A stretch of DNA of 64,000 nucleotides, taken from assembly GCF_000507245.1 (NCBI RefSeq), contig NC_023035.1, forward strand, positions 2,895,570 through 2,959,569, read 5' to 3'. The notes under the pieces are model-generated. The model ran no database searches, was not told where the DNA came from, and saw only the letters and a program-made list of their open reading frames with translations. The position numbers and the translations under genes were made by a program. Source of the stretch: Salinispira pacifica. Lineage in GTDB: Bacteria; Spirochaetota; Spirochaetia; DSM-27196; Salinispiraceae. Positions within the stretch are counted from its first letter, which is position 1. The number at the start of each line of letters is the position of its first letter. This document shows, piece by piece, positions 48,066 through 64,000 of the stretch.

Positions 48066-50549
48066 TTACTGCAATTTGAAGGTAATACTCTTAGTCTTGA
48101 AAAGTTTCAGCACATTTCCGCTGAATCTCCGGGTTGTGTCCTTCACCTCAAGCCGTTTTCCGTGAAGCTTTCCGCTTGAGGAGTGAAGTTCCACCCCGTC
48201 GAACTCATCGTACAGAAAAAACGATATGCGGACCGGGCCGAAGCCCTGAAGCAGATGCTCCAGATACAGCTGCAGGGTGGTCTCTTTTTTACCTTTTCCC
48301 CCGCCCTGCCTTCGCACATGCGCCTTGATGCTGATCTCCGTCTGGTTGGCCCGGGTGTATCCGCCGGTCAGACCGTCATCGCTCACATAACGGTACTCCA
48401 GGGTTGCCCTGGAACCGGCGCGCATGATTACATGAAATTCCACGTTGCTGATGTCGCTCTGGTTCGTTTTGGGTTCCTTGTGAAGCATGGGAATAATGCT
48501 GTCCTCCCGGAAGAACAGCGGCGTGGACTCATCATCCAGGGAACACTGAATCCATCGCCCCCCCTTTTTCCAGCTGCCGTCTCCGGCATCGAACCACCCC
48601 GGAAACGTATGTTCACCCTCAACCTGAGCCGGAAGATACACTTTCCGTTTCTGCTGGTTCTCCATGGTTGACGGCGCCTGAAGAATAGAAGGCCCCACCA
48701 TGAACGCATCGCCGATATTCCAGCTTTCCTCCATGCTATCCGGAAAATGGTACCAGAGAGGGGCAAGAATCGCTCCCCCGTGAAGTTCCTGTTCAATGTG
48801 CAGGTTATACAGATACGGCAGCAGCCGGTATCTGAGTCGGATAAAACGGGATACGATGTTTCTCACCCTGGATCCGAATTTCCAGGGCTCCTGGTGAGCG
48901 GTGCCCTTGCAGGAATGATTGCGCAAAAACGGCTGAAGGAATGCGGACTTGTACCAGTCTATCATCAGCTTCGCATCTGCATCTTCAATAAAGCCCGGAA
49001 CATCCGCCCCCCAGAAGGGAATCCCGGAGAGGCCCAGGTTCATTCCGGTTTTAATGGTCTGTGCAAGATGATGGTAGTTGCTTGCATTGTCTCCCAGCCA
49101 TACCGCCGCATAACGGGAAGTACCGGGGCTGCCGCTGCGGCTGAGAATAAATGGACGCAGATCAGGCGCATGCCGTTGGAACCCCTCCCGGCTGGCCTTC
49201 TGCATTCCCAGGGCATAGGAATTATGAAAGTAGCCGTGGGGCAGACGGCCGTTCTGAAAACGCATATCTTCCGGGGAGGCGTCCCCGGTTGCCGGATCAT
49301 TCATATCCAGCCATATCCCCTCTATTCCCAGATCCGCAAGGACAGACACCTTCTTCGCCCACCAGTCCCGAGTTTCAGCCAGGGAAAAATCCGGGAACAC
49401 CGTTTCACCGGGCCATACATAGCCCACATACTCACCCCCTGCGCTGTTTTTACAGAACAATTCCTGTGTGCTGCCCTCCTGATACGGCGGGTAGCCGGGA
49501 TCGAGCTTCACCCCCGGGTCAATAATCGGCACCACCCGATGACCGTGGGATTGAAGACGGTCAATCTCCGCACCGGGATCCGGGAAAAGATCAGGGTCGA
49601 AACTGAATACCCGGTACCCGTCCATATAGTCAATATCCAGCCACAGACCGTCATTGGGAATGCCGTACTTCCGGAATTGCTCCCTTACCTGATTCAGATC
49701 ATCAGGACCAGCATAGCCCCAACGGCTCTGGTGATGCCCCAGACTCCACAGCGGAGGCCGGGGGTGGGTGCCCAAAAGGCGGTGAAACTGACGGGTCACC
49801 TGCTCAGGGGTATCGCCGGCAATAAAAAAGAGCACTGGAGCCCCGTCTTCGGCTGCGATAAACAGCTGTTGGTCCGTATCTGCACTGTCCATGATTTCGA
49901 TATGGGGGTTGCTCCCCAGCGCCATCCAGCTTCTGTACAGATTGTGGGAGAACACTCCAAGCCAGCCCCCAGGGCTGTGGATCAGCACATAGGGAATGGA
50001 AATATACATGGGATCAGGTTCGCCGCTGATCACCTGCTGCCAGGGAAAATCTCCCAGCACATCGGTATTTCGAAACCCCACCCTTCTGCCGCTGAACTCC
50101 GGGCCGCCGTTCTTTTCCCCCAGGCCGTAAAACCGGTATTCCGGATGAGAACGGAAATTCACAATCCATGAGCGCAGATCTTCTCCCCCCACCCCAATGG
50201 GACCGGCATCCAGAATGGCAGCACCCCGCCAAAGCAGGGAAAAGCCGCCGCTGCATGGTACCGCCGACGCCTGATCCGGGTCTTCACCGCTATGCTGAAC
50301 CAGCTCAAGCTCCGGGTGAGCATCCCCGCCGGCGGCCCCTGAAGGAGCATTCGTCTCCGTGAGATCCAGAGTTTGAAACTCCGGCAGTGCGGAAGGGGAA
50401 AAATCGATGATCGCCGGCTCACTCTGCCAGCGTTCATCGCTGACCTCCAGGGCCAGAAGGGAAGCGCCAGCCCGATACCAGGACTGTTTCAGTTCAGAAT
50501 GCTGATCGTAGCGGAAATTCCGGGGTGAAGGCGTCTTGGATACATACAT
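48066..50549 (-). CDS. GH31 alpha-glucosidase-family glycosidase
   Basis: An 827-residue enzyme without signal peptide. The GH31 catalytic barrel has WSLGHHQSRWGY, LWLDIDYMDGYRVFSFDP and the nucleophile Asp415 in IWLDMND; the usual WxDMNE Glu is Asp here. ILSRSGSPGTSRYAAVWLGDN and SGIPFWGADVPGF follow, and the C-terminal beta domain includes FMVGPSILQAP. It should release glucose or xylose from alpha-linked oligosaccharides in the cytoplasm. The start has near-consensus TTGACC-N17-TATGCT 9 nt upstream and no Shine-Dalgarno sequence. It diverges from the sirtuin gene. Confidence 0.93.
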   Translation of the reverse strand: MYVSKTPSPRNFRYDQHSELKQSWYRAGASLLALEVSDERWQSEPAIIDFSPSALPEFQTLDLTETNAPSGAAGGDAHPELELVQHSGEDPDQASAVPCSGGFSLLWRGAAILDAGPIGVGGEDLRSWIVNFRSHPEYRFYGLGEKNGGPEFSGRRVGFRNTDVLGDFPWQQVISGEPDPMYISIPYVLIHSPGGWLGVFSHNLYRSWMALGSNPHIEIMDSADTDQQLFIAAEDGAPVLFFIAGDTPEQVTRQFHRLLGTHPRPPLWSLGHHQSRWGYAGPDDLNQVREQFRKYGIPNDGLWLDIDYMDGYRVFSFDPDLFPDPGAEIDRLQSHGHRVVPIIDPGVKLDPGYPPYQEGSTQELFCKNSAGGEYVGYVWPGETVFPDFSLAETRDWWAKKVSVLADLGIEGIWLDMNDPATGDASPEDMRFQNGRLPHGYFHNSYALGMQKASREGFQRHAPDLRPFILSRSGSPGTSRYAAVWLGDNASNYHHLAQTIKTGMNLGLSGIPFWGADVPGFIEDADAKLMIDWYKSAFLQPFLRNHSCKGTAHQEPWKFGSRVRNIVSRFIRLRYRLLPYLYNLHIEQELHGGAILAPLWYHFPDSMEESWNIGDAFMVGPSILQAPSTMENQQKRKVYLPAQVEGEHTFPGWFDAGDGSWKKGGRWIQCSLDDESTPLFFREDSIIPMLHKEPKTNQSDISNVEFHVIMRAGSRATLEYRYVSDDGLTGGYTRANQTEISIKAHVRRQGGGKGKKETTLQLYLEHLLQGFGPVRISFFLYDEFDGVELHSSSGKLHGKRLEVKDTTRRFSGNVLKLFKTKSITFKLQ

Positions 50550-50558
50550 GATACCCGG

Positions 50559-50587
50559 AGCATACGGCAGCAGGGGGTGGGGGTCAA
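50559..50587 (-). promoter_or_regulatory. promoter of the GH31 gene with a very short leader
   Basis: Minus strand TTGACC (50587-50582), 17 bp, TATGCT (50564-50559), then 9 nt to ATG 50549. The predicted leader is about 2-3 nt. Confidence 0.6.
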
Positions 50588-50635
50588 CACAGAATTGCCC
50601 GAAGCAAACAAAATGCTGAAAACCTGCCGAAGCCT

Positions 50636-50664
50636 TTGCCCCTGTTCCTGCCGGGAACTATATT
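50636..50664 (+). promoter_or_regulatory. putative leaderless promoter of the sirtuin gene
   Basis: TTGCCC (50636-50641), 17 bp, TATATT (50659-50664), then 7 nt to ATG 50672. An upstream in-frame ATG at 50636 would fall in the -35, so 50672 is preferred. Confidence 0.6.
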
Positions 50665-50671
50665 TTATGGT

Positions 50672-51511
50672 ATGAAGGATCTGTACGGACGTTTAGCTGA
50701 GGGGCTCATTACCGTTCTCAGCGGTGCCGGCATCAGCACCGATTCGGGTATTCCCGATTACCGCGGGGAAGACCGTACCCGGGCCAGGAAACACGACGGT
50801 GATTCGGGCCCGGTTACATATAAACAATTCATGGGCAGTGCGGACAAACGGCGCCACTACTGGGCCCGCAGCGCCCTTGGCTGGCCGTGGATCCGCTCAC
50901 GAGAGCCCAACCGGGCCCATCGCATTCTCAGCCGCCTGGAAGAAGCGGAACACATTAACGGCATCATAACCCAGAACGTGGATGACCTGCATTTCAAGGC
51001 TGGAAGCCGCAACGTTATAGAACTCCACGGAAATCTGAAACAGGTGAAATGCATGGGGTGCGGCGGAATGAGCAGCCGGGATGAACTGCAGGAGAGAATG
51101 CTTCTTGATAATCCCCCATGGAAACGCCTCAGCAGCGACTATTCCCCCGACGGCGATGCCCTTCTTTCCGAAGATGTGACCCGGGAGTTTCGCACCCCCG
51201 GCTGCCCCGCATGCGGGGGTATCCTCAAGCCGGATGTGGTATTTTTCGGCGAAAACGTACCTCGGACACGGGTTCAAAGCTGCTATGCCCTGGTGGATGA
51301 GTGCGACCTGCTTCTGGTGCTGGGCAGCTCCCTTGCTGTTCGCTCGGGCCTTCGCTTCGTGGAACACGCAAAAAACACCGGAAAACCGGTAATCATCGTA
51401 AACCGGGGAACCACCCGGGGTGACGCTTCGGCTGATCTCAAGGTGGATACATCCATCACACAATGGCTGGAGACCCACCTGGCTGAACCGGAAATTTCAC
51501 CCCGGGCCTGA
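50672..51511 (+). CDS. Sir2-family NAD-dependent protein deacylase
   Basis: 279 residues. The NAD-binding GAGISTDSGIPDYRG, TQNVDDLH, catalytic His119 (ELHGN) and zinc-site pairs CMGCG and CPACG are all present, and the C-terminus has VNRGTTRGD. The Zn module and the FRDR-like IPDYRG favour a bacterial class II-like or class III sirtuin; substrates are acyl-lysines of unknown proteins. No partner acetyltransferase is close. It lacks a ribosome-binding site and has a promoter ending 7 nt upstream of the start. Confidence 0.94.
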   Translation: MKDLYGRLAEGLITVLSGAGISTDSGIPDYRGEDRTRARKHDGDSGPVTYKQFMGSADKRRHYWARSALGWPWIRSREPNRAHRILSRLEEAEHINGIITQNVDDLHFKAGSRNVIELHGNLKQVKCMGCGGMSSRDELQERMLLDNPPWKRLSSDYSPDGDALLSEDVTREFRTPGCPACGGILKPDVVFFGENVPRTRVQSCYALVDECDLLLVLGSSLAVRSGLRFVEHAKNTGKPVIIVNRGTTRGDASADLKVDTSITQWLETHLAEPEISPRA

Positions 51512-51567
51512 TATATTTATCTGAAGAATGCAGCCGGGGAGACTCCGGCGGCACACGGGAGGTTCGG

Positions 51568-52149
51568 ATGAATATTCGTAGAATTATGCTGATGATTCTG
51601 ATGTTTTCCATAATTCCGGCTCTTGCACTGAGTGCTCAAAGCGGAGAGGATTCCTCAGATCAGGATGAAGAAAAGCAGGATGTCATTACACTCAGAAACC
51701 AGGCGGGTATTGCAGTATCTGCGGGTTCGGTTCTTCTCAGCCCGGATATCGCAATCCTCTACCGGCCGGGATTCTGGGGTGTCGGAGCGGGGGTGAAAGG
51801 GTACGCGGGACTCGCTCTGGGTGACGCCTACATTGTGCCCTACGCCACCACCGAGCTGGGCTGGTTTTCCGCTGACCTGGGCATAAGCCTGAGAGTCAGG
51901 GAGAGCAACATCAACAGCGTATCCTATGAAGGAGAGGATCTGCCGCTGTACATATCCGCAGGGCTTCACCCTTCATTCAAGCTGGGACCGGGAAAGCTCA
52001 TGCTGGGAGCAAGCTTCGATCTGGCAATGACGGATGTGCCGGTTGTTGAAAGCGAAGATGCCCTGGAAAGCTTTTTCGCCACCCTCATCGTAGCTATATT
52101 CAGTATTTTCAAGGTTGAAGGGGATATCGGCTACCGCATCTCATTTTAA
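51568..52149 (+). CDS. exported protein, probable outer-membrane beta-barrel
   Basis: 193 residues with a signal peptide (about 1-23, ends LALSAQ). An acidic linker (EDSSDQDEEKQ) is followed by alternating amphipathic strands (AGIAVSAGSVLLSPDIAILYRPG, GVGAGVKGYAGLALGDAYIVPYATTELGWFS) and a terminal Phe (YRISF), as in small outer-membrane barrels. No family is recognised. GGGAGG lies before ATG 51568. It follows the sirtuin gene by 56 bp in the same direction. Confidence 0.65.
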   Translation: MNIRRIMLMILMFSIIPALALSAQSGEDSSDQDEEKQDVITLRNQAGIAVSAGSVLLSPDIAILYRPGFWGVGAGVKGYAGLALGDAYIVPYATTELGWFSADLGISLRVRESNINSVSYEGEDLPLYISAGLHPSFKLGPGKLMLGASFDLAMTDVPVVESEDALESFFATLIVAIFSIFKVEGDIGYRISF

Positions 52150-52234
52150 AACACCGCTTTCATGATCGTCTCTGCCCACTCTCCCGCCGGTCCGCGGTAC
52201 AGATCCATCCGGCTGAATTGTGTGCCGGCGGCTC

Positions 52235-52263
52235 TTGATTCACTCACGGGGGATAGATATATT
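52235..52263 (+). promoter_or_regulatory. putative leaderless promoter of the parvulin gene
   Basis: TTGATT (52235-52240), 17 bp, TATATT (52258-52263), 7 nt, ATG 52271. No Shine-Dalgarno sequence. Confidence 0.6.
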
Positions 52264-52270
52264 TGCCGTC

Positions 52271-52546
52271 ATGGAATACAGAGCAAGTCATATACTGGTA
52301 AAAGATAAAACACTGGCCGAACGTCTCCTGAAGCAGCTGAAAGGTGGCGCGCGATTTGAAGCCCTGGCCAAGGATTTTTCCACCTGTCCCTCCAAAAGCA
52401 AGGGCGGCGACCTGGGCTGGTTCGGCCCCGGCAAAATGGTGAAGGAATTTGAACAGGCCTGCAGCAAACTCAGCCCCGGCCGCTTGAGCACAGTGGTCCG
52501 CACCCAGTTCGGCTTTCATATTATCAAACTGACCGGGCGGAAATAG
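52271..52546 (+). CDS. parvulin-type peptidyl-prolyl isomerase
   Basis: A 91-residue single-domain parvulin (PpiC-like). YRASHILVKDKTLAERLLKQL, FSTCPSKSKGGDLGWFGPGKMVKEFE and VRTQFGFHIIKLTGR are the family blocks. It lacks a signal peptide, so it is cytoplasmic, like E. coli PpiC. It catalyses cis-trans isomerisation of X-Pro bonds. ATG 52271 is chosen because the preceding 17 codons span the promoter. It is convergent with the flavin reductase gene. Confidence 0.95.
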   Translation: MEYRASHILVKDKTLAERLLKQLKGGARFEALAKDFSTCPSKSKGGDLGWFGPGKMVKEFEQACSKLSPGRLSTVVRTQFGFHIIKLTGRK

Positions 52547-52566
52547 GACTGTTGGGTGCCAGCAGG

Positions 52567-53946
52567 TTACACTCCCGAAACTGAGGCCTGAAATATAAGA
52601 CGATGTTCAAGTTCTTCCATAAACCGTTCGGCTTCCCCGGGAGAGCTGACAAGTCCCTGGTCCAGGAATATCTCCTGAAACAGCTCCCTCACCTGGCGTC
52701 CCATTGAGAGGCGGCCGCAGAGATAAATGTGAGCTCCGTTTCCCAACTGCCTGACAATTTCCTCCCGCTGTTCCCAGATAATTGCCTGTACGTATTCGGA
52801 CTTGCGGGCCGAATCACTTGGACGGGATTCGGCAATGTCCAGCCGGGAGATGAGACCCCGTCGTTCATATTCCAGAAGTTCGCTGCCGTACAGGGAATTT
52901 GCCTCCCAGCTGCGGACCCCATAAATGAGCCACAGCGGGGAGCCGTATTCACCGCTGCGCAGCAGAGACAGGGGTCCGGAGATCCCGCTTCCTGTTGCCA
53001 CTGCGATTAATCCCGGAGATTTTCGTTCAAGACGGTGCGGAAACTGATGGAGTTCCGGCAGCAGCCAGGCATTGACCGTATCACCGGGCTTTCGATTAGT
53101 GAGAAACGCACTTGATCTGGCCGGCAGAGTTATCCGACGGTGCTGTACATTTTTCAACTGTTTGAAAACCCGGCTCACCGTAATTTCGACTTCCAGTCTC
53201 CCGTCCCGGGTGAGGCTGCTGCCGCTTACGGTATAGGGCCTTCCTTCAACCCCGGGTTGCCAGCGCACCAGATCCCTGATGTCCGGAAGCTCCTTCATCT
53301 CTTCCAGAATATGGATGAGCGAATACCCCATGCCCTGAAGTTCCGGATGGGGAAGATCCCAGTTCCGGGATCTCAGTATCCGCCGGTGGTAGGCCCGATG
53401 AGCCTTATGAAAACGCTTCAACTGCAGAGCCCGTTCATTCAGCCCCGCCCATGCAAGCAGTTCCCCGCCTGCCTCATCAATATCAATTTCCCGTTCCAGA
53501 ATATCCCGGAGATTTCCGCTGACCATTTTTCCCGGATGAAACACCGATGAGCTGTCGCCCCGGCTTACCCTTCTGCTTCCGTCCTCGCCGAAGATATCCA
53601 GAATTTTCTGCACTTTTTCGGGAGAATTCCGCCATTTCACAAAGAACATGTCCCCGGGGGCGGGAGCATTCCCAACAGGCCCGAGGGAAATGAGCCTGAT
53701 ATTCCAGGTGGGATGGGATCCTTCACCCGAATCAAGGCGGGAAACCCGTCTCACTTCCCAGGAAACGGGGGGGGAGGAAAGAAGGCGCAGCACCCGGGAA
53801 ATTCTCCATTGGACGGCTTCGCTGAAATCCCCGGGAGGATTGGAGCGGAGAGGATACATTTTCTGAAGGCTCCGGTTGGAGATCCTGTGGAACGCATGCC
53901 GGAGTCGTTCCCGCATGGGATAGATATATTTTGATGTACGCTTCAT
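52567..53946 (-). CDS. NADPH-flavin oxidoreductase related to CysJ/cytochrome P450 reductase, without flavodoxin domain
   Basis: A 459-residue soluble protein. An FAD-binding region contains GRPYTVSGS, the counterpart of RxYS, and the NADP-binding half has VATGSGISGPLSLL, YGVRSWEANSLYGSELLEYERRG and the near-C-terminal AIIWEQREEIVRQLGNGAHIYLCG. That order matches the FNR module of sulfite reductase alpha and P450 reductase. The N-terminal flavodoxin domain is absent and replaced by about 60 residues without known features. Electron acceptor unknown. AAGGATGAGAG precedes ATG 53946. Confidence 0.82.
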   Translation of the reverse strand: MKRTSKYIYPMRERLRHAFHRISNRSLQKMYPLRSNPPGDFSEAVQWRISRVLRLLSSPPVSWEVRRVSRLDSGEGSHPTWNIRLISLGPVGNAPAPGDMFFVKWRNSPEKVQKILDIFGEDGSRRVSRGDSSSVFHPGKMVSGNLRDILEREIDIDEAGGELLAWAGLNERALQLKRFHKAHRAYHRRILRSRNWDLPHPELQGMGYSLIHILEEMKELPDIRDLVRWQPGVEGRPYTVSGSSLTRDGRLEVEITVSRVFKQLKNVQHRRITLPARSSAFLTNRKPGDTVNAWLLPELHQFPHRLERKSPGLIAVATGSGISGPLSLLRSGEYGSPLWLIYGVRSWEANSLYGSELLEYERRGLISRLDIAESRPSDSARKSEYVQAIIWEQREEIVRQLGNGAHIYLCGRLSMGRQVRELFQEIFLDQGLVSSPGEAERFMEELEHRLIFQASVSGV

Positions 53947-54060
53947 CTCTCATCCTTATTGTAGGCGGACCGCCATGATGAGGCAGCTTGTACCCGCGGT
54001 TTGGGGCCATGCCGCCATTTTAGGCGTGCCGCCATGCTTTGCTGCACAGCGCTTTTGAAA

Positions 54061-55716
54061 TCACCAGAGTCTGGGAACCGGAAGCAGCTGATCGTGCCCT
54101 GCATCTTCAATCCGTCTTGATTCAACGCCGAATATCTCTCTGATTCGGAGGGGAGTGAGAACGGTTCCGGGGGCGCCCTGGGCAATTACCCTGCCCTGAT
54201 CCATCAGAATGAGTTCGTCACAGTAGCGCGCAGCCTGGGTGATATCGTGGAGAACCATCAACACCGTAACCTGACTGCTGCGGTTCAGCTCCCGGAGATG
54301 CTGAAGGGTATCTTCCTGATGCCTGATATCCAAAAAGGTGGTGGGTTCATCCAAGATAACGATTGGCGATCCATGGGCAATGCTCATTGCGATACGGGCC
54401 CGCTGCAGCTGACCTCCGGAGAGCTGCTGAACAGGAATGTTTTCCAGCCCCTGAAGCCCCATACGGGATACGGCTTTCTCCATGACCTGGCGTTCTTCAA
54501 AACTCCAGCGCTTTCCAGGTGCAACATGAGGGTATCTGCCCATGGAAACAAGTTCCAGAAGAGTGATCTCCCCCATATCCTCCGACTGCTGTGCAAGATG
54601 GGAGATTGTCCGGGCTCTCTCTCTAACTGGAGTTTTTGTGAGAGGTTTTTCCAATACATGCACCTCGCCGCTGTGGGGAGTCAGGAGCCCGGTAAAATGC
54701 CTGAGAAGCGTGGATTTGCCTGATCCGTTGGGACCGATAATTCCGGTCACCTTTCCGCCGGAAATTCCACAGGAGATGTGCTTCAAGGCATGTAATTTCC
54801 CCGCCCTTTGCCGGGACGTTTCATAAGTGAAGTTGAGGTTCTCCGCCCTCAGAGGAACACCTGATGTCCCCGCCCGGGGAGAAGCTGGAGAGCTGCGGGG
54901 CAGCAGATAGGAAAGCCCGGATCCCTTCTTCTGCCCATGGGTGCTTTCAGCATCAATCCGTACAAACTCCGTGTCAAAGAGCCTTTCCGGAATGGAGGAG
55001 CTGATTATCTCAGCAGGAGTTCCCCGCCCCAGGATGTGCCCATCTTTCATTGCAAGAATAAAATCCGACAGCTCAAGGGCATCGTTCAACTCATGGAGAA
55101 CGAGAATCACCGTTTTCTCCGGCACCATGCTGCGTATGAGGGAGAGCAGTCTTCGGCGGTGTCTTAGGTCCAGATAGCTTGTAGGCTCATCAAGGAGCAG
55201 GGTATCGCTCTCCTGGGCCAAGGCCATGGCAATCCAGACCAGCTGACGCTGTCCGCCGGAAAGCTGATCCAGGGCCCTGGAACGGAATTCAAACATACCG
55301 GTGTTTTTCAATGCGGTTTCCGCCGCCCTGATATCCTCAGGCCCCGGTGAGCTGAAGGCGCCGAGATGGGGGTATCTTCCTCTGAGCACCATGTCATACA
55401 CGGTAATCCCCATGGGAATCCTGAAGCTTTGAGGAAGGAAGCCCAGTTTCCTGGCCCGGACCTTCGGAGAATGTTCCAGAATTTGTGTATGATCCAGACT
55501 GACCTCTCCTGAAGCAGGTTTGATCAGACCGGCCATCCCCCTGAGCAGGGTGCTTTTGCCGCAGCCGTTCGGTCCGATCAGGGCGGTGATAGCTCCCCGG
55601 GGAATTGAAAGGTTCACATTTTTTACCACCGGTACACCCGGGGTGTACTCCAGGTTCAGATCCGAGACCCTGATCACCTCATCCGGCGGATGGCCGGCGT
55701 CATACGTATCTGCCAT
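54061..55716 (-). CDS. fused double ABC ATPase of an iron-siderophore/haem-type importer
   Basis: 551 residues with two complete FecE/FhuC-like ATPase halves. Half 1 (about 10-265) has GPNGCGKST, LSGGQRQLVWIAMALAQ and TLLLDEPTSYLD. Half 2 (about 300-540) has GPNGSGKST, LSGGQLQRARIAMS and IVILDEPTTFLD. Both signatures and Walker motifs look functional. The linker (about 268-298) is Pro/Ser/Gly-rich. The two halves probably serve the two separate FecCD permeases encoded just upstream. Its ATG shares one base with the stop of the upstream permease. Such fusions are uncommon for this family. Confidence 0.92.
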   Translation of the reverse strand: MADTYDAGHPPDEVIRVSDLNLEYTPGVPVVKNVNLSIPRGAITALIGPNGCGKSTLLRGMAGLIKPASGEVSLDHTQILEHSPKVRARKLGFLPQSFRIPMGITVYDMVLRGRYPHLGAFSSPGPEDIRAAETALKNTGMFEFRSRALDQLSGGQRQLVWIAMALAQESDTLLLDEPTSYLDLRHRRRLLSLIRSMVPEKTVILVLHELNDALELSDFILAMKDGHILGRGTPAEIISSSIPERLFDTEFVRIDAESTHGQKKGSGLSYLLPRSSPASPRAGTSGVPLRAENLNFTYETSRQRAGKLHALKHISCGISGGKVTGIIGPNGSGKSTLLRHFTGLLTPHSGEVHVLEKPLTKTPVRERARTISHLAQQSEDMGEITLLELVSMGRYPHVAPGKRWSFEERQVMEKAVSRMGLQGLENIPVQQLSGGQLQRARIAMSIAHGSPIVILDEPTTFLDIRHQEDTLQHLRELNRSSQVTVLMVLHDITQAARYCDELILMDQGRVIAQGAPGTVLTPLRIREIFGVESRRIEDAGHDQLLPVPRLW

Positions 55717-56777
55717 CAGGATCTCCTCCTGAGAAGCATGAGGAAATAGGGAGCCCCCACCGCCGCGGTGATCAGCCCCACCGGAATGCTTACCGGAAAA
55801 AGATGCTGGGCAGCGATATCCGAACCCAGCAGCATGACGCCCCCCAAAAGCATTGCAACGGGCAGAATAACCGCCGAACTGCTGCTTGTGCCCCCCATGA
55901 TTCCCCTGGCCAGCTGGGGCACCATCAACGCAAGAAAGCCGATGGGACCGGTGAGAGAAACCGCCATGGCGCTGAGCAGACTGCCCAGAATAAGCAGGGC
56001 ATACCGGAGGAATTCAAGGCGAACCCCCAGCGTTTCGGCGGCATCGCTTCCAAGCACCAGGGGTCTGATCCGGATGAGAAAGTACAGGGCCGGGGGAATG
56101 AGAACCAGGCCGGAAATCAGGAGAAACCGGGCGTCCTGCCATGAACTTGCATACAGCGAACCGGCCAGCCACTGATAGGCGCGGCTCACATTGTGAATGC
56201 TTCCAGATACGATGAATAGCTGCACCAGCGCTGTCAGCGCCGCATTCACTCCCACACCAACCAGAACCAGACGGTTTTCGCTGAAGGCCCCTGTCCGGCT
56301 GAAAACATACACCAGGGCAGAGGCGGACAAAGCGCCCGCTGAAGCTGGCACGGCCGCAAGATCCGTACTGCCCCCGTTCACCAGCCAAGCGACTGCCGCC
56401 GCGGAAGCACCGGCGGTAATGCCGATAATATCCGGCGAAGCCAGGGGATTTCGAATGAGTACCTGGAAGATGTGTCCGGCTGCAGCCAGGTGAACCCCCG
56501 CCAGTACGGCCACAGTAATTCTGCTTAGTCTCAATTCGCGAACCAGATGTATGCTCAGCCTGGAACCTTTTCCTGCCAGGGCCTGGAACAATTCACCCAG
56601 ACCGATCCGAAGATCACCCAGGCTCAGGGCAACCAGTCCGAGAACTCCCAGAAGCAGCATCAACCCGAATATCCACAGAAGCTGCAGGGGGAATACCCGT
56701 AACGTTCCGGAGCCGAATTTAAGAAAACGGGCCCGGCGCAGGCTGCTGCCGATTTCCGCCGGAGGGGAGAGTTTCAC
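55716..56777 (-). CDS. FecCD-family ABC transporter permease (second)
   Basis: 353 residues, about 9-10 helices, with the FecCD blocks LAGVHLAAAGHIFQVLIRNPLASPDIIG, GSDAAETLGV and PIGFLALMVPQLARGI. GTG 56777 is chosen as start: it overlaps the TGA of the upstream permease and follows GGAGG by 7 nt. The open frame extends 153 codons further, but in the other permease gene's coding region. It should pair with the first permease as a heterodimeric channel for Fe-siderophore or haem. Confidence 0.92.
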   Translation of the reverse strand: MKLSPPAEIGSSLRRARFLKFGSGTLRVFPLQLLWIFGLMLLLGVLGLVALSLGDLRIGLGELFQALAGKGSRLSIHLVRELRLSRITVAVLAGVHLAAAGHIFQVLIRNPLASPDIIGITAGASAAAVAWLVNGGSTDLAAVPASAGALSASALVYVFSRTGAFSENRLVLVGVGVNAALTALVQLFIVSGSIHNVSRAYQWLAGSLYASSWQDARFLLISGLVLIPPALYFLIRIRPLVLGSDAAETLGVRLEFLRYALLILGSLLSAMAVSLTGPIGFLALMVPQLARGIMGGTSSSSAVILPVAMLLGGVMLLGSDIAAQHLFPVSIPVGLITAAVGAPYFLMLLRRRS

Positions 56778-57799
56778 AGGGCCACCTCCCCGTGTCTCCG
56801 CACCAGCAGTATGAGAAAGGGTGCGCCGAAAAGGGCCGTGATAATTCCCACCTGGAGCTCTGCGGGCCTGATGATCAGTCTTCCGATAATATCCCCCGAC
56901 AGAGTGAGAACGGGGCCGGCCAATAGTGAGTAGAGGAGAATTCTGCGGTAATCGCCCCGGGCAAAGGGCCTGACCATATGAGGCACCGCAAGTCCCACAA
57001 ATGAGATGGGACCGGCAATGGCCACCGTGGAACCCGCCGCCATAACCACTAACCCCAGAATGAACAGACGGACTGTTCCCGTGGACATTCCCAGGGAGCG
57101 AGCCCGTTCCTCTCCAATGCTGATGATATTCAGATGATGTCCGCTGAGCACCAGCAGCAGGACGGACAGCAGCTGAAATGGAAGGACCTGCATCTGTATG
57201 TTCATATCCCGCCCGCTGATGCTTCCGGTGAGCCAAAACCTCACCACATCCAGAGCCGCCTGGTCAAAAAGCAGGATGCCGCTGGTCAGGGAAGATAGAA
57301 GTGCAGCCACAATCACTCCCGCCAGGGCGAGCTTCACAGAAGGGCTTCCTCCCCTGCCCCCTGATGCAACCCCGTACACCAGAACTGCAGAGAATGCGCC
57401 TCCCAGGAATGAAAATGCAACGAGCACCGGTACGGCGGAAATGTTGAGAAGGGAAACCGAAACCACAATGCTGAATGCGGCTCCGGCATTTACCCCTAAA
57501 AGTCCGGGTGAAGCAAGAGGGTTGCGGGTAACCGCCTGCATGGCGGTTCCGCTTACTGCAAGGGCTGCGCCTGCAAGAATGCCCATCAGCGTACGGGGAA
57601 TTCTCAGAGTGCGAACCACCGCATGCTCATAGATCCGGGAGTCATATCTGAAGATCCCCTGAAACACCATCCCGGGACGGAAATCCATGGCTCCCAGGGA
57701 GAGACTCAGGAGAGCCACTGCCCCCAGAGATAGAATCAGCCCGGGGAGGATAACCCCCGGGCCGATTTTGCTGCCGAACTTCACTTTGATTCCCTTCAA
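56774..57799 (-). CDS. FecCD-family ABC transporter permease (first)
   Basis: 341 residues with FecCD pattern: TLRIPRTLMGILAGAALAVSGTAMQAVTRNPLASPGLLG, ARSLGMSTG and GPISFVGLAVPHMVRPF. The start at 57799 overlaps the binding-protein stop by 4 bp, and the stop overlaps the next permease start. It forms the membrane part of an iron-complex importer with the second permease. Confidence 0.93.
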   Translation of the reverse strand: MKGIKVKFGSKIGPGVILPGLILSLGAVALLSLSLGAMDFRPGMVFQGIFRYDSRIYEHAVVRTLRIPRTLMGILAGAALAVSGTAMQAVTRNPLASPGLLGVNAGAAFSIVVSVSLLNISAVPVLVAFSFLGGAFSAVLVYGVASGGRGGSPSVKLALAGVIVAALLSSLTSGILLFDQAALDVVRFWLTGSISGRDMNIQMQVLPFQLLSVLLLVLSGHHLNIISIGEERARSLGMSTGTVRLFILGLVVMAAGSTVAIAGPISFVGLAVPHMVRPFARGDYRRILLYSLLAGPVLTLSGDIIGRLIIRPAELQVGIITALFGAPFLILLVRRHGEVAL

Positions 57800-58878
57800 C
57801 GGGCAACCGCGGTCTGGGGATTTCCGTCTGATGCAGCCTGCAGCAGTTCTTCGAACTCTTCAGCCGCATAGGAAAGGCTCAGGACGGTACTGAAACTGAG
57901 TGCACCGTAGAGCGGATCATCGGAGCCGAAAAAGGGAATAATTCTCCCTTCGGAGGCAACCTCAAGCCCGGAAAACAGGTCATTTTCCAGAAGCTCCCGG
58001 TACGCCTCCCAGGAGGGCATCTGAAGCACCAGAACATCGGTATTTAACAGACGGACCTGCTCGCCGGAGATCTGGGCTGCATCTTTATCCCCCACAAGCT
58101 CTCTCAGTTCTTCAGGAAAGCTGAATCCCATGGAAGTAAGAAACCGGAGAGGAGGAGTATCGGGACTGAACACCCAGAACTGGCCCTGCCCCTGTGCAGG
58201 GGAGGCGAACACTATCTCCTGATCCTGAAAATCGGGGTTGCGGCGGGCTACATCCCTGATCTGTTCTTCCACCCGGGAAATTACCGTCTCTCCCCGTTCG
58301 TTTTCTCCAAGAGCCCGGGCAATCACCCTGGTTTGTTCCTGCCATGGCACAGAAAATGCCGCGAAGCCTTCAGGTTCGGGAATGGTGGGAGCAATCACTG
58401 AAAGTGTGTCATACTCCTCAGCGCTGATCCCTGCATGAGTTGCAATGATCACATCCGGCTCCAGTGAGGCGATACGCTCAAAATCCAGTTCGCCGTATGC
58501 CATTTGCAGAACTTCAGGTTCGCCGCTGCCCAGTTCATCCTGAGCCCAGGGCCATACGCTGTTGGGATAGTCGCCGAACCAGTAACGGAGGGCTACAGGG
58601 GTATAGCCCAATGCAAGAATCGGATCCTGCTCGCTGTAGCCGATGCTGACCACACGTCGGGGCTTGGTTTCCACCACCGTGGCACCGTAGCTGTGAGATA
58701 TCTCCACAGGAAAATTCCCGCTGGAGGATTCATCCCCCTGTGTTTCCGCTGCTTCTGAGGTTTGGGACTGAGCGCCCTCTCCTGCAGAAGTCCCGGATTC
58801 TCCCGATCCCGAAGCGAAGAGGGGAAAGGCCGTAAAGATGAAAATTATAGACACAACAAAAAAGCTGCGAAATTGCAT
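57796..58878 (-). CDS. iron-complex ABC transporter substrate-binding protein
   Basis: 360 residues, class III (FecB/FhuD/BtuF-like) binding protein. The export signal ends FPLFASGSGESG without a lipobox Cys. An acidic linker (about 25-55) is followed by PRRVVSIGYSEQDPILALGYTPVAL and LEPDVIIATHAGISAEEYDTLSVIAPT. These favour ferric-siderophore or haem binding. It is the first gene of the binding protein-permease-permease-ATPase operon. AAGGAG lies before ATG 58878. The promoter -10 region contains ATGATAAT, also present at the divergent arsR gene. Confidence 0.9.
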   Translation of the reverse strand: MQFRSFFVVSIIFIFTAFPLFASGSGESGTSAGEGAQSQTSEAAETQGDESSSGNFPVEISHSYGATVVETKPRRVVSIGYSEQDPILALGYTPVALRYWFGDYPNSVWPWAQDELGSGEPEVLQMAYGELDFERIASLEPDVIIATHAGISAEEYDTLSVIAPTIPEPEGFAAFSVPWQEQTRVIARALGENERGETVISRVEEQIRDVARRNPDFQDQEIVFASPAQGQGQFWVFSPDTPPLRFLTSMGFSFPEELRELVGDKDAAQISGEQVRLLNTDVLVLQMPSWEAYRELLENDLFSGLEVASEGRIIPFFGSDDPLYGALSFSTVLSLSYAAEEFEELLQAASDGNPQTAVAR

Positions 58879-58907
58879 AGTATTAACTCCTTGATTTGGA
58901 TGTGTTT

Positions 58908-58937
58908 ACATTATCATTTTTCTCATATTTATTGCAA
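58908..58937 (-). promoter_or_regulatory. promoter of the iron-complex ABC operon
   Basis: Minus strand TTGCAA (58937-58932), 18 bp, TAATGT (58913-58908). The -10 overlaps ATGATAATGT, a motif shared with the arsR promoter, so one regulator may bind both. Confidence 0.6.
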
Positions 58938-58971
58938 GAGATTACCCCTATTAATCCCCGGTTCAGGCAAA

Positions 58972-59024
58972 TTGCTATGTCCCGATCTTCGTGATATGAT
59001 AATTGTCTATGCGCATGATAATTG
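58972..59024 (+). promoter_or_regulatory. arsR-type gene promoter with ATGATAATTG repeats
   Basis: TTGCTA (58972-58977), 17 bp, TATGAT (58995-59000), then 8 nt to ATG 59009. ATGATAATTG occurs twice, over the -10 (58996-59005) and over the first codons (59015-59024), 19 bp apart. Confidence 0.6.
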
Positions 59025-59341
59025 ACCAGCTCAAAGCTCTGGGGGAAGACAATCGGTTTCGGATCGCCATGATGCTTTTGAGCAGACCGCTGTGCGTGTG
59101 TGAGATTCATCACCTTCTGAACATTTCCGGAGCCACCCTCTCCAATCACCTGAAAATTCTGAAATATTCCGGGATCGTGAAAAGCCGGCGTGAGGGAAAG
59201 TGGATCGAGTATGATGTGAAAGATGATGCAATACGGGAACTGCTCACAGATATCCGAAAACGGGTGGATGATGACAGTATTATCAGCAACGACGCTCAGG
59301 AACTGAAAACCATTTCCCGGGACCTCTGTAAAACCGGATGA
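59009..59341 (+). CDS. ArsR-family transcriptional regulator
   Basis: 110 residues. The winged helix-turn-helix is at about 10-85: LKALGEDNRFRIAMMLLSRPLCVCEIHHLLNISGATLSNHLKILKYSGIVKSRREGKWIEYDV. The N-terminal CVC and the Cys near the C-terminus could bind metal or redox signals, though a classic ELCVCDL box is only partly matched (PLCVCEIH). It is divergent from the iron-transport operon, its likely target. ATG 59009 has no Shine-Dalgarno sequence; a TTG at 59003 is an alternative. Confidence 0.9.
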   Translation: MRMIIDQLKALGEDNRFRIAMMLLSRPLCVCEIHHLLNISGATLSNHLKILKYSGIVKSRREGKWIEYDVKDDAIRELLTDIRKRVDDDSIISNDAQELKTISRDLCKTG

Positions 59342-59389
59342 GCCGGATGCGCTGAACACTCTGCAGTCAAAATACCCCGGAATCTAAAT

Positions 59390-59427
59390 ACAAGAAGGCC
59401 CCGGATGCTCGTACCAGCAGCCGGGGC
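59390..59427. repeat. GC-rich inverted repeat downstream of the arsR-type gene
   Basis: CCCCGG and CCGGGG close a hairpin (about 59391-59426) with an inner GCT/AGC helix. It may mark the 3' end of the regulator transcript, but no T run follows. Confidence 0.45.
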
Positions 59428-59437
59428 AAATTCACAG

Positions 59438-59460
59438 GAAAAACACGGCCCAAGCCGTGT
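59438..59460 (-). terminator. intrinsic terminator of the sensor-kinase operon
   Basis: Minus strand ACACGGC-TTGG-GCCGTGT followed by TTTT, 100 bp after the sensor kinase stop. The remaining gap to 59558 holds nothing recognisable. Confidence 0.65.
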
Positions 59461-59558
59461 CAGAGTCGTCATTTTCAGTCCCGGGATACTGGGTCCGAAA
59501 ACGTTGAATCGATAAAATAATACCGATTACTGCTCACCCGGTCAAGTCTTTTCTGCGT

Positions 59559-61562
59559 CTATCCGTTCTTTTTTTCATCTCCGGCTCTGCCTCCTTTCAA
59601 TTCCTCAGGCAATACAATTTGAAAGCAGACTCCCGTCTCGTTACGGTCGACAAATCTGATTGACCCTTCCAGCATGTCACGAATAATGGCGTCAATAATT
59701 GAAAGTCCCAGTCCGGTTCCACCCCGGGATTTGGCGGTTGTGAAAAACCGGGTGAATATCTGATTCTGAAATTCCCGGGGGATTCCTTCCCCGTCATCAC
59801 AGTACAGAATCTCAACTTCACCGGAGCCGGAATGTTCTGCAGCTATTCTGATATTCCCGCCGTTCCGGTTCCGAAATCCGTGGAGAATTGAGTTCTGTAT
59901 GAGATTACTGAATACTTGAATAAGAAGCCCGGGATAGCTGGCAATCTCCAGATCTTCGGATATTTCCAGCCTGAGTTCCACATCCATGGATTTTCGGCTG
60001 TACCGGCTGTTTTCATACGTGGTTTCAATAATCTCTTTGAGGAAGAACTTCTCCAGCTGCATGTTGAGCTGGGCATTGGCACTGGTTCGGATGCTCTGGA
60101 CAACCCTGCGGACCTGATTGATATTCCACACCAGACTTCCAAGCATTTCGTTGCTTTTACCGATGAATTCACTGAACTGGGTTTTTGTAAGATCCTGATT
60201 CTGAAAATCCCGATCCAGGCTGATCATCCCCTGCCGGAGGGAAGAAACGGCCAGATTGATATTACCAATGGGCGTCTGAATCTCATGGGCGAAACCAGCC
60301 AGCTGTTCCCCCATGGAAGCCAGCCGCTCCTGGGCAATGTTTTCCTCAATGAGCCGGTTCAAACTTTCAGCAGTGATCCGCTGCAGGCCGGAAAATGTGC
60401 GGTACAGTTCTCCGATTTCGTCCTTCCGGTGGTACAGGGGTATGCGGGGCACGATGTAGCGATGATCATTTCTCACCTTCCGCATTTCCCGACTCAGAAC
60501 CTGCAGGGGGGTGTTGATATAGCGGACAATAAAGAGGGAAAAAATGATGGAAAAGAATATCGCCATCCCGTTGATGGAAAGTACCGTGAACCAGGTCAGA
60601 CCGATATCCGCATATACCTCGGTTTCCGAGGCAATAACCCCCAGCACCCAGGAATTCTGCAGCCGGGAATACCCTACCAGATGATTCTCCCCGTCCGCAG
60701 CAAATTCCAGAAAATGGGCGGAACGCTGGTTTTCAGGGTCAAAGATTACTCTTCGCAGCTGCTTCCAGGAAGCTTCGCTCAGTCTGCCGGGCGGGGACTC
60801 CTCCTCAGGATAAATACTGATATTCTCGGTCATGAGAAAGGCGTGTCCGCTGGTGTGAACACGGTACTCCCGGATTGTTTCCAGAATATCACCCGCAGCA
60901 ATATCAATCCCCACCACCCCTATGGGAGCCTCATTACCGTTGGACTCAAAGGCTCCGGGATATACCGGCACTGTGTAGGAAAACATCTCCACATTAATAT
61001 CCAGATCCCGATACAAATCGCTCCAGTAGGCTTTTCCCTCCCGAAGGGGATGGTAATAATACTTCATGTCAGGATTCTCGGGATCCATGTGCTGCGGTAG
61101 AGGATACTCCGGGCCCCGAACCCACTGGCCGTTTTTCCGGTAATACCAGATCTGGCCCGGCGGGTCTCCGAAAGCCGGCGCAGACATGAAATAGACGCCG
61201 TGAATGCTGGAATTGCTTCGGGCTGTAGTAAGCAGCGCCCTGGCATGTGAGTTTCTGAATTCCCGGAGATATTCCTCCTGCCCGGCCATATCCGGTCGGA
61301 ACGAAGCACCCACACTTCCGGCAAGAATATCAGCACCGTCCTCCATGCTTTCCAGCAGGAGCATCATGTCCATGCCGATATCCCTGCTGAGATCCACCAT
61401 GGTTTCGGCCATACTTTCCTTGAGAGAACGTTCCATTCTGCCTGTGGAAACCACGCTGCTGGCAAAGGAAATAAGCAGCAGGGGAAATACCAGCATCAGC
61501 AGGATATTCGAACCCAGCGCGGTGATATCACTTCGTTCCCCTGGCGTATTTCCCCCGTTCAT
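59559..61562 (-). CDS. Cache-domain sensor histidine kinase
   Basis: 667 residues. TM1 is at about 18-38; an extracytoplasmic Cache-type sensor (about 40-330) includes GVYFMSAP, WSDLYRDLDINVEMFSYTVPVY and IGVVGIDIAAGDIL. TM2 is at about 340-362 and HAMP about 363-415. The dimerisation helix has LAGFAHEIQTPIGNIN (His near 460), and HATPase_c has DGEGIPREFQN and GGTGLGLSI. The start ATG 61562 overlaps the TGA of the S-component gene by 4 bp. Earlier frame-open codons lie within that gene and were excluded. No cognate regulator is encoded next to it. Confidence 0.92.
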   Translation of the reverse strand: MNGGNTPGERSDITALGSNILLMLVFPLLLISFASSVVSTGRMERSLKESMAETMVDLSRDIGMDMMLLLESMEDGADILAGSVGASFRPDMAGQEEYLREFRNSHARALLTTARSNSSIHGVYFMSAPAFGDPPGQIWYYRKNGQWVRGPEYPLPQHMDPENPDMKYYYHPLREGKAYWSDLYRDLDINVEMFSYTVPVYPGAFESNGNEAPIGVVGIDIAAGDILETIREYRVHTSGHAFLMTENISIYPEEESPPGRLSEASWKQLRRVIFDPENQRSAHFLEFAADGENHLVGYSRLQNSWVLGVIASETEVYADIGLTWFTVLSINGMAIFFSIIFSLFIVRYINTPLQVLSREMRKVRNDHRYIVPRIPLYHRKDEIGELYRTFSGLQRITAESLNRLIEENIAQERLASMGEQLAGFAHEIQTPIGNINLAVSSLRQGMISLDRDFQNQDLTKTQFSEFIGKSNEMLGSLVWNINQVRRVVQSIRTSANAQLNMQLEKFFLKEIIETTYENSRYSRKSMDVELRLEISEDLEIASYPGLLIQVFSNLIQNSILHGFRNRNGGNIRIAAEHSGSGEVEILYCDDGEGIPREFQNQIFTRFFTTAKSRGGTGLGLSIIDAIIRDMLEGSIRFVDRNETGVCFQIVLPEELKGGRAGDEKKNG

Positions 61563-62140
61563 TGCTCTTCGCCCCCAGGCTTCAAGTATTGCCGGAGTTT
61601 CGGAAAAAGAGCCATAAGAACCAGCACCGCAATTCCCTTGTCCACAATGTTGATTACCACCCTGGTGACAAATGCCGAGGAGAAGATGCTCTGACCTGAC
61701 TGTATGAGAGCATGCACAATAAAATCGAATCGTTTGAGGGTGAATCCTCCGAACGCAAAAACCGCTATCACCGTACCTGCCAGGGCATTGAGCACGGCCA
61801 GAATACATATGAACAGGGTGACGCCAAGCACCGTCTTCAGGGCATTGCGTCTGATCATGATATGGGTGACCAGAACGGTAACAATCTGGGCCGCTGCAAA
61901 GGGCCACAGTATGCCGGAGAAGCCTTGAAGCGCATCCATAAGCAGATTTGTGGACACGCCGATTACCATCCCCCACCACGGTCCCAGCAGGGCAGTACCC
62001 AGAACGGTGAACATACTGTCCATGAATATGGGAAGGTCTGCGAGCTGGGTAAGATAATTCAGGAGGGAATTCATGAACACTGAGACGATCACCAGAACCG
62101 AGACAAGTGCACTGCGCCGTGAGAACAATTTCGTGTTCAT
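61559..62140 (-). CDS. ECF transporter S-component-like membrane protein
   Basis: 193 residues, about six hydrophobic segments. FMDSMFTVLGTALLGPWWGMVIGVSTNLLMDALQG resembles the S-component fold of energy-coupling-factor vitamin/metal importers. No ECF ATPase or T-component is in the window, so it would have to use a shared module elsewhere. It is coupled by a 4-bp overlap to a Cache histidine kinase, which suggests that it transports or senses the kinase's ligand. No Shine-Dalgarno sequence precedes ATG 62140; TATTAT ends 7 nt upstream. Confidence 0.7.
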   Translation of the reverse strand: MNTKLFSRRSALVSVLVIVSVFMNSLLNYLTQLADLPIFMDSMFTVLGTALLGPWWGMVIGVSTNLLMDALQGFSGILWPFAAAQIVTVLVTHIMIRRNALKTVLGVTLFICILAVLNALAGTVIAVFAFGGFTLKRFDFIVHALIQSGQSIFSSAFVTRVVINIVDKGIAVLVLMALFPKLRQYLKPGGEEQ

Positions 62141-62147
62141 AACAAAT

Positions 62148-62176
62148 ATAATAATCTATTTCAGGAGATTTGCCCA
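62148..62176 (-). promoter_or_regulatory. putative leaderless promoter of the S-component gene
   Basis: Minus strand TGGGCA (62176-62171), 17 bp, TATTAT (62153-62148), 7 nt, ATG 62140. The -35 lies in the last codons of the radical SAM gene. Confidence 0.45.
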
Positions 62177-63665
62177 GAAAAAGCCCGGCCGGCGGGGCTG
62201 TCCCCCTCCCGGGAAAACTCATTGAGAAGTCCGGCCATATGCCCGGCGTCGATGCCCCAGGTACGCCCCAGATGGCTGTAGAGGTAATCTCCCAGGGCCA
62301 TGAGAGAAGCGAAGCTGTCTCCCCCCGGAGGAAAGAGCCGTGAGACTTCCCGGGGGTAGCGTCCCCGGTTCACCACCAGCTCCCAGTATTTGGCAGCTCT
62401 GCTGATTCTCTGCATATCTTCAGCAGAAATGCTTGCACTTGAATGCAGTTCATAGGGAGCTTCAGGGGAAAATTCCATGTTCCATTCATCAATATGCCGT
62501 CCCAGGGTGGTTCCCGGAAGATATTTCAGTATCCCCAACTGAAGCTCTGCGGAGCTTCCGGTACCTGGCTGCTTAAGAAGATCCCACAGGCGGTTGAAGC
62601 CCGAACCGAAGCTGTTCATATCTTCTCCCGGCAGCCCTGCAATAAGATCGGCATGAATTACCGCATGGGTCCGGGTTACCAGAAAGCTGAGGTTTTCCAT
62701 ACTCCTGTCATAGTCCTGTTTCCGGTTTATCCGGGCGGCAGCTTCCCGGTTAAAGGTCTGAATGCCCACTTCCAGGCGAAGCATTCCCGGAGGAAATTGT
62801 TTCAGCCTCCCCCTCAGCTCATCAGGCAACCGGTCCGGCACCACCTCAAACTGGACGTAAGCGTCATTCCGCCGTTCATCACGGAATAGCTCCAGAAACA
62901 GGTCCAGCACCGCCGCCGCCCGGGAAATATCCAGGTTGAATGTACGGTCAATAAACTTGAAAAAGCGTCCCCCCGCCGCCCAATAGCGCCGGATGGCGGA
63001 AAAATCCCTTCCAGGGGAATATTCCGCACCGCTCCCTGCACACTGGAGAGACAAAACTCACAACGGAAAGGACAGCCTCTGCTGGTTTCGATGTACAGCC
63101 GGCGGTGCACAATATCGTGATCGCTGAGCAGATGGTATGGAAGCCGTATTTTCTCCAGCTGCCGGGGGCTCAACTGCTGAAACCGCCGGGTTTCGGGAAT
63201 CAGCTCTTTTGCACGCCGTCTCAGGCTGGTTTGGCCGGGCCTTCCAGCCTTATCAATTTCGGACAAAATCTTCCTGCAGAGCTCCGGGAAAAGAATTTCC
63301 CCCTCTCCCCGTACGACAAGATCGGCATGTTCAAACAGGGGGTGGGAGGCATAGCCCGGGCCGTCCCCTGCCAGATAGCCCGCCTCCGGTCCGCCCATCA
63401 CAATCACCGAATCCGGAAGCAGATCCCTGAGGGCGGCGGCCAGTTCCCGGGAGTCCTGATGGTTCCACACCGCCACCGAAATACCGATGATCGCCGGGGC
63501 ATGGCTCACAATTTCCCGGATCATGGGCTCACGTCCGCCCCGGCGGGTGCCCTCCACAATTCGGGTGGAAGATTCCAGCTCGCCCATATTGGCCAGAATG
63601 TATCTGAGGCCGAAATTGGGGTGGCTGTACCCTGCATTGACACTGGTGAGTACGATATTGGACAT
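62161..63665 (-). pseudogene. B12-binding radical SAM protein (DUF4080-type), broken by one frameshift
   Basis: Two overlapping frames together encode one protein of about 500 residues. The first part (from ATG 63665 after GGGAGGAAGG) has a B12-binding domain (about 1-140, VVRGEGEILFPEL) and the radical SAM cluster CPFRCEFC with ETSRG before it. After RNIPLEG the frame must change, and FSAIRRYWAAGG with FFKFIDRTFNL follows in the other frame, then LRLEVGIQTFN, ADLIAGLPGED and a DUF4080-like end. The break is at the A5/T5 run 63000-63004; one added T would restore the frame. It may be a real mutation, a sequencing error or a site of ribosomal slippage. Confidence 0.85.
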
Positions 63666-63695
63666 GGGAACCTTCCTCCCGGAATCGTTTTTCGT

Positions 63696-63701
63696 TATAC
63701 T
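63696..63701 (+). promoter_or_regulatory. -10 element 8 nt before ettA
   Basis: TATACT (63696-63701) lies 8 nt before ATG 63710 with a weak TTCCTC -35 at 63673-63678. No Shine-Dalgarno sequence. Confidence 0.4.
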
Positions 63702-63709
63702 GCCGGGTA

Positions 63710-64000
63710 ATGAGCAATGGTGAAGACAAAAAAGTAATTTATTCGATGCACAAGGTGAGCCGGCACCACGGAACCCGGCAGGTAATTAAAGATATCAGCC
63801 TCTCATATTTTTACGGCGCAAAGATCGGAGTAATCGGTCTCAACGGTTCGGGAAAGTCCACCCTGCTGAAAATCATGGCTGGTGTGGATACCGAATACAA
63901 CGGTGACATTTCCGTCAGCCCGGGATTCAGTATCGGCTACCTGGAGCAGGAGCCCCAGCTGGAAGCGGGCAAAACCGTCAAGGAGATCGTCTCCGAAGGC
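63710..64000 (+). CDS. ettA: energy-dependent translational throttle protein EttA, 5' part
   Basis: 97 codons visible; the gene runs off the window end. The sequence opens VIYSMHKVSRHHGTRQVIKDI and contains the first Walker A GLNGSGKST, KIMAGVDTEY and GYLEQEPQL, as in EttA of the ABC-F family, which binds the ribosomal E site and adjusts elongation to the ADP/ATP ratio. It diverges from the radical SAM gene with a 44-bp gap. Confidence is high for the family and a little lower for EttA against other ABC-F members. Confidence 0.9.
   Translation, partial: MSNGEDKKVIYSMHKVSRHHGTRQVIKDISLSYFYGAKIGVIGLNGSGKSTLLKIMAGVDTEYNGDISVSPGFSIGYLEQEPQLEAGKTVKEIVSEG

Follow-up and report, generated by a model that had tools for sequence, protein, structure and literature searches.

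Why does the gene of a membrane protein with the fold of an ECF substrate-binding (S) component overlap that of a sensor histidine kinase (HK), and what could the two proteins do together? The pair lies in a window of 64,000 nucleotides from Salinispira pacifica (NC_023035.1, positions 2,895,570 to 2,959,569), by which we mean the whole stretch that was analyzed; coordinates below are those of the window. Because spirochaete S-type proteins are found repeatedly beside kinases, and in some cases fused to them, rather than with motors, the pair is probably a two-part receptor: with a probability of roughly 0.6, on comparative evidence, S would bind the ligand as one subunit of a split receptor and would control the kinase.

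Gene arrangement in the window

The S gene (61559..62140, minus strand) encodes a membrane protein of 193 amino acids, the proposed ligand-binding subunit, and its partner HK gene (59559..61562, minus strand) a protein of 667 amino acids. The stop codon of S and the start codon of HK share the bases ATGA (61559..61562, minus strand). The initial annotation held that this 4-bp overlap forces coupled synthesis; the overlap is real, but "forces" is too strong, as ATGA and a GGGGG stretch about 10 bases upstream of it are compatible with translational coupling without imposing it. The HK frame is open further upstream, giving 887 amino acids from an ATG at 62222 and crossing the S gene in another frame; the start at 61562 is the likelier of the two. 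A B12-binding radical SAM gene (62161-63665, minus strand) lies 20 bases upstream of S and is divided by a frameshift, natural or an assembly error, into a B12-binding and a radical SAM open reading frame. On the other side, an ArsR-type regulator gene on the opposite strand stands between the kinase and a Fec/siderophore-type ABC set (54061-59341), in which one 551-amino-acid protein comprises two fused ATPase domains. With these as its adjoining genes, the pair has no response regulator (RR) beside the kinase, as the initial annotation had stated.

The same annotation noted that no ECF A or T component is near S, and EcfT genes indeed occur at only two, distant, places in the 3.78-Mb, single-contig genome, one in a BioY-ABC set and the other next to EcfA and a Fec-type set. 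Since S-components may make use of a shared module encoded far away, the missing adjacent EcfA/EcfT does not by itself exclude transport by S. S might then be an ordinary or solitary importer subunit, working alone or with EcfA-EcfT in trans, and the kinase might merely control how S or its pathway is expressed. The EcfA-EcfT pair (L048, G000:C1:659200-659859) has no recognized S gene beside it and could serve an S protein in trans, which counts against a split receptor, and solitary transport is known for BioY and BtuM (PMC11109136). We think a plain importer unlikely, given the gene orders, fusions, and residues described below. The genes accompanying this EcfA-EcfT pair are a flavodoxin-like gene, FecCD, a binding protein, and a radical SAM gene.

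The S protein and its partner kinase

S scores above the gathering cutoff of PF12822 (33.9 against 30.7 bits) and under the curated cutoff of the CD3073-family model NF045596 (102.8 against 180 bits). Its AlphaFold2 model (pLDDT 90.9, pTM 0.86) is predicted to have the six-membrane-helix S-component fold. Searches with this model (Foldseek and VIA-align) placed ECF S-components on top, with TmRibU at Z 15.0 and S-components in all of the best 21 rows, and when the S profile was searched against PDB sequences, the matches were weak (E 0.2-0.5) and all to S-components. The assignment made in the initial annotation, which named a fold unlike S-components as grounds for abandoning it, is thereby upheld. 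The 5TMR family PF07694 matched neither S, nor the other set-A1 members, nor the scanned fusion proteins. The NXR motif that 5TMR-LYT kinases carry between helices 1 and 2 is absent from S, which has LLNYLTQLADLPIFMDS there.

The kinase (all features on the minus strand) begins with a transmembrane helix assigned by hydropathy (residues 11-41; 61440..61532), followed by an extracytoplasmic dCache-like domain (residues 95-309; 60636..61280), a second such helix (residues 322-353; 60504..60599), and a HAMP domain above the PF00672 cutoff (residues 344-390; 60393..60533). The HisKA phospho-acceptor region (60144..60314) scores 19.6 bits against a PF00512 cutoff of 26.9 and has its motif around H426 (AHEIQTP), and a HATPase_c domain (59601..59927) matches PF02518 at 3e-20, above the cutoff. 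AHEIQTP, NLIQN, DDGEGI, and GTGLGLS supply all of the H, N, G1, and G2 boxes. Of the label "Cache histidine kinase," the kinase half is borne out by motifs and HATPase_c; the Cache half falls below the gathering cutoff of dCache_1 (PF02743; 31.2 bits, 2e-7, against 45), although the PDB Cache protein 9hvj matches at E 1e-12. That the kinase possesses a sensor domain of its own counts against a split receptor.

Linkage of S to kinases in the genome and the family

A second S paralogue of the genome (33% identity) adjoins a HisKA_3-type HK and a NarL-type RR in a convergent arrangement, with S and RR overlapping by 13 bases. HATPase domains gave 65 matches in the genome, in about 60 genes or one per 63 kb, so that a random gene would adjoin an HK a few percent of the time; both S paralogues do so. 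Homologues of S are present in 16 of 61 near genomes, and a profile search found them in 101 of the 392 genomes of Spirochaetota. Neighboring genes were scanned for about 170 S domains, which came from Spirochaetota and from 80 loci in named genomes; as these were the best-scoring loci, the proportions are no census. Among the loci scanned, most family members outside Spirochaetota sit in ECF operons of the order S-T-A-A or A-A-S-T, and most S genes of Spirochaetota adjoin an HK, usually together with a NarL-type RR. ECF operons are kept in a few Spirochaetota (L106, L113, L120/L121, and Treponema loci), and in two Desulfobacterales loci (L179, L197) S precedes the gene of a hybrid HK and overlaps it by 4 bases. 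In one Spirochaetota family (f44), S genes stand in tandem, as many as four together (L131, also L119 and L130), with neither a kinase nor an ECF module close by.

A quick tree without bootstraps, built from 133 non-redundant S domains with helix-1 columns 17-29 left out, splits into sides of 63 and 70 rows with an SH-aLRT of 100. Window S falls on the 63-row side, which holds 51 HK-linked, 12 unlinked, and no ECF-linked rows and is from Spirochaetota wherever the origin is known; the place of window S inside this clade is unsure because of its long branch (1.39). Rows were counted as HK-linked when an HK lay within 1.5 kb, with the exception of L032 (HK 2.1 kb off in an S-RR-HK set), and two of the 51 (L134, L190) have an RR alone on their contig. 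The 70-row side comprises 43 ECF-linked, 8 HK-linked, 7 HD-GYP-fused, and 12 unlinked rows. A single clade of all HK-linked rows was rejected (AU p 2e-60), so linkage arose or was retained on more than one occasion. The initial annotation had looked to co-occurrence of the pair in other spirochaetes: S-HK/RR linkage recurs in Spirochaetota, but none of the relatives showed the exact pairing of S with a Cache kinase. S genes that often accompany an ECF module and lack a kinase, which it had counted against its reading, do exist; they belong to the opposite side of the tree and mostly to other phyla.

The lack of conservation of the exact pair would suit a chance meeting, in which S and HK are neighbors without a functional link and their overlap is incidental to this genome. 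Two further findings count against a split receptor: an HK is missing from the 5 kb around the closest S (G002, 41%), and the Cache half of the kinase had no relative at E 1e-8 among 60 genomes. Clade-wide linkage and the position of both S paralogues beside an HK, against the few percent expected by chance, argue the other way and make an accidental juxtaposition very improbable.

Gene orders and fusions

The 59 HK-linked rows differ in gene order: divergent in 25, S then HK on the same strand in 11, HK(-RR) then S in 9, convergent in 9, fused in 3, and with an RR only in 2. Short S-HK overlaps like that of the window are also present in L099, L122, L179, and L197. The partner kinases vary as well, from HisKA_3 proteins with two transmembrane helices to hybrid SBP-HisKA-REC-AraC proteins and the Cache-HisKA protein of the window. 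Linkage of S to HK has thus outlived rearrangement, and its survival through changed orders and kinase types is hard to explain by frozen synteny. The divergent order, as the commonest, favors an importer under kinase control, and divergent or same-operon genes would also fit S as a target of the two-component system, a point against the split receptor; the convergent and HK-RR-S orders weigh against such an importer.

The strongest argument for a sensory role comes from fusions. Three Treponema loci (L090, L091, L092) encode S and HK as a single protein (S domain, transmembrane helix, short loop, transmembrane helix, HisKA_3, HATPase), followed by an RR gene. In Treponema HK-RR-S operons the HK is separate, and such HKs are matched by the kinase portions of L090 and L092 (E 1e-25 to 1e-41). 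L094 and L097 join S to the sensor half of an HK of this Treponema-operon type, and the kinase is missing. Fusions of S to HK and to HD-GYP also count against a role for S as a mere importer subunit. The AlphaFold2 model of L092 has a pLDDT of 84 and a pTM of 0.62, and we draw no claim of S-kinase contacts from it. L098, like L094 and L097, joins a two-helix, kinase-like sensor half to S and has no kinase domain. An S domain of the same family forms the N terminus of long proteins of the Treponema group (L084-L089, L093, L095); those scanned (L085, L089, L093) end in HD-GYP, with a two-component propeller in between in L085.

Residues kept and lost

Nine residues (N24, P37, D41, T45, G53, N65, N164, D167, K168) are common to ECF-linked and HK-linked members, and window S has them all. 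It also has N118 and R160, which are common to the HK clade and the uridine-phosphorylase-linked ECF subset and are missing from most other ECF members. At helix-1 positions 18, 22, 27, and 28, at least three small residues are present in 37 of 43 ECF-linked but only 8 of 59 HK-linked rows and none in window S, which has I18 and F22 where its ECF-linked relatives mostly have P or A, and A, respectively. At least four of G44, P54, G93, P124, and G135 are found in all 43 ECF-linked rows against 6 of the 59 HK-linked ones; window S has one. In S-components, an AXXXA motif in helix 1 serves docking to EcfT (PMC11109136), and with the register set by motif it is absent from helix 1 of window S. From this published motif and the motif-based register we infer that the ECF-typical residues may serve EcfT docking. 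A plain AXXXA in any register failed to separate the groups (21 of 59 HK-linked, 5 of 43 ECF-linked) and is rare even among the ECF-linked rows; the docking claim is consequently limited to the family columns. The positions were chosen post hoc; three independent contrasts gave none contrary, and the independent-pair tests are underpowered. The HK-linked L179 and L197 keep the ECF-type docking positions, which counts against a receptor reading.

The loss of ECF-type residues from window S speaks against an ordinary importer subunit. It also bears on a dual role, in which S would both import its ligand and report occupancy to the kinase, in the manner of DctA-DcuS and BceAB-BceS. The residues held in common with ECF-linked S-components fit such a role, and transporter-kinase pairs of this kind are known (PMC11109136). 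As no motor is encoded nearby and the ECF-type residues are lost, we find a combined importer and sensor quite doubtful. The co-sensor of the initial annotation, feeding the kinase rather than forming part of a classical importer, is favored by HK/RR linkage, S-HK fusions, the lack of an ECF module in the clade, and the lost residues.

Candidate ligand and proposed mechanism

A-A-S-T operons, which hold the nearest ECF-linked relatives, are preceded, at a distance of about 1.7 kb, by a gene for a uridine phosphorylase-like protein, and several also have DeoC; in another ECF-linked group TudS-related desulfidases lie alongside. These neighbors suggest, as a lead, that the ligand of S is a nucleoside or nucleobase. 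The vitamin-type ligand of the initial annotation was a guess, and the genes beside ECF-linked relatives suggest nucleosides instead. An Rfam scan of 50000-64000 gave no match and hence no riboswitch clue to the ligand, and no paper was found on CD3073 or nucleoside ECF S-components. In 15 ECF-linked loci of several phyla (within L195-L222), a conserved gene of about 140 to 150 codons directly precedes S; by eye its product is PPC/DUF296-like, without an NCBIfam match.

The fold, the overlap of the genes, the recurring linkage, the fusions of relatives, and the pattern of residues are observed; for the contact between S and HK, the ligand, the direction of signaling, the output, and the regulator, we infer the following split receptor. 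S, a relative of the substrate-binding subunits of ECF transporters that lacks the features of docking to a motor, would bind a small molecule at its outer face, and this ligand may be a nucleoside or nucleobase. By touching the transmembrane helices of the membrane-bound kinase, S could then alter that kinase's activity, and a second signal may be sensed by the Cache domain of HK itself. Phosphate would pass to a response regulator encoded elsewhere.

Relation to known systems

For the family as a whole, we give about an even chance to the proposal that the large spirochaete clade comprises stand-alone receptor subunits for exchangeable kinases, probably nucleoside-sensing, with independent recruitments elsewhere in the family into kinase operons and HD-GYP fusions. 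If true, the clade would connect vitamin transporters with receptors at the level of sequence. Here sequences of transporters can be aligned with those of putative receptors, and both are mixed in one tree, in unfused, fused, and ECF-linked forms. The switch from transporter to receptor thereby becomes testable, and candidates are at hand for the docking residues, the ligand residues, and the class of ligand. The link at the level of fold is already published: the S-component fold is the membrane domain of 5TMR kinases, where modulation of the kinase through the transmembrane helices has been proposed (PMC11109136). Only structural comparison had revealed that shared fold, and the authors of the work were unable to reconstruct its evolutionary route (PMC11109136). 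Separate S subunits for two-component systems appear unreported, as we found no report, in mostly non-subscription literature, of separate PF12822 S-components in this role or of their recurrence in Spirochaetota.

Window S resembles ECF S-components (PF12822, CD3073-like) in fold, Pfam match, and the polar residues common with ECF-linked relatives. It differs from them in having no adjacent ECF module, in the lost ECF-type helix-1 and loop residues, in its kinase operon partner, and in falling under the NF045596 cutoff. With the 5TMR-LYT kinases (BtsS, YpdA; PF07694) it has in common an S-component fold serving as the putative membrane sensor of a histidine kinase. Unlike in those kinases, S is a separate polypeptide with a recognizable PF12822 sequence and no PF07694 match, and its partner kinase has transmembrane helices and a Cache-like domain of its own. 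In DctA-DcuS and BceAB-BceS, too, a separate membrane protein is proposed to inform a kinase; those are other transporter types, and the interaction that is reported for them, as cited in PMC11109136, is predicted for the window pair.
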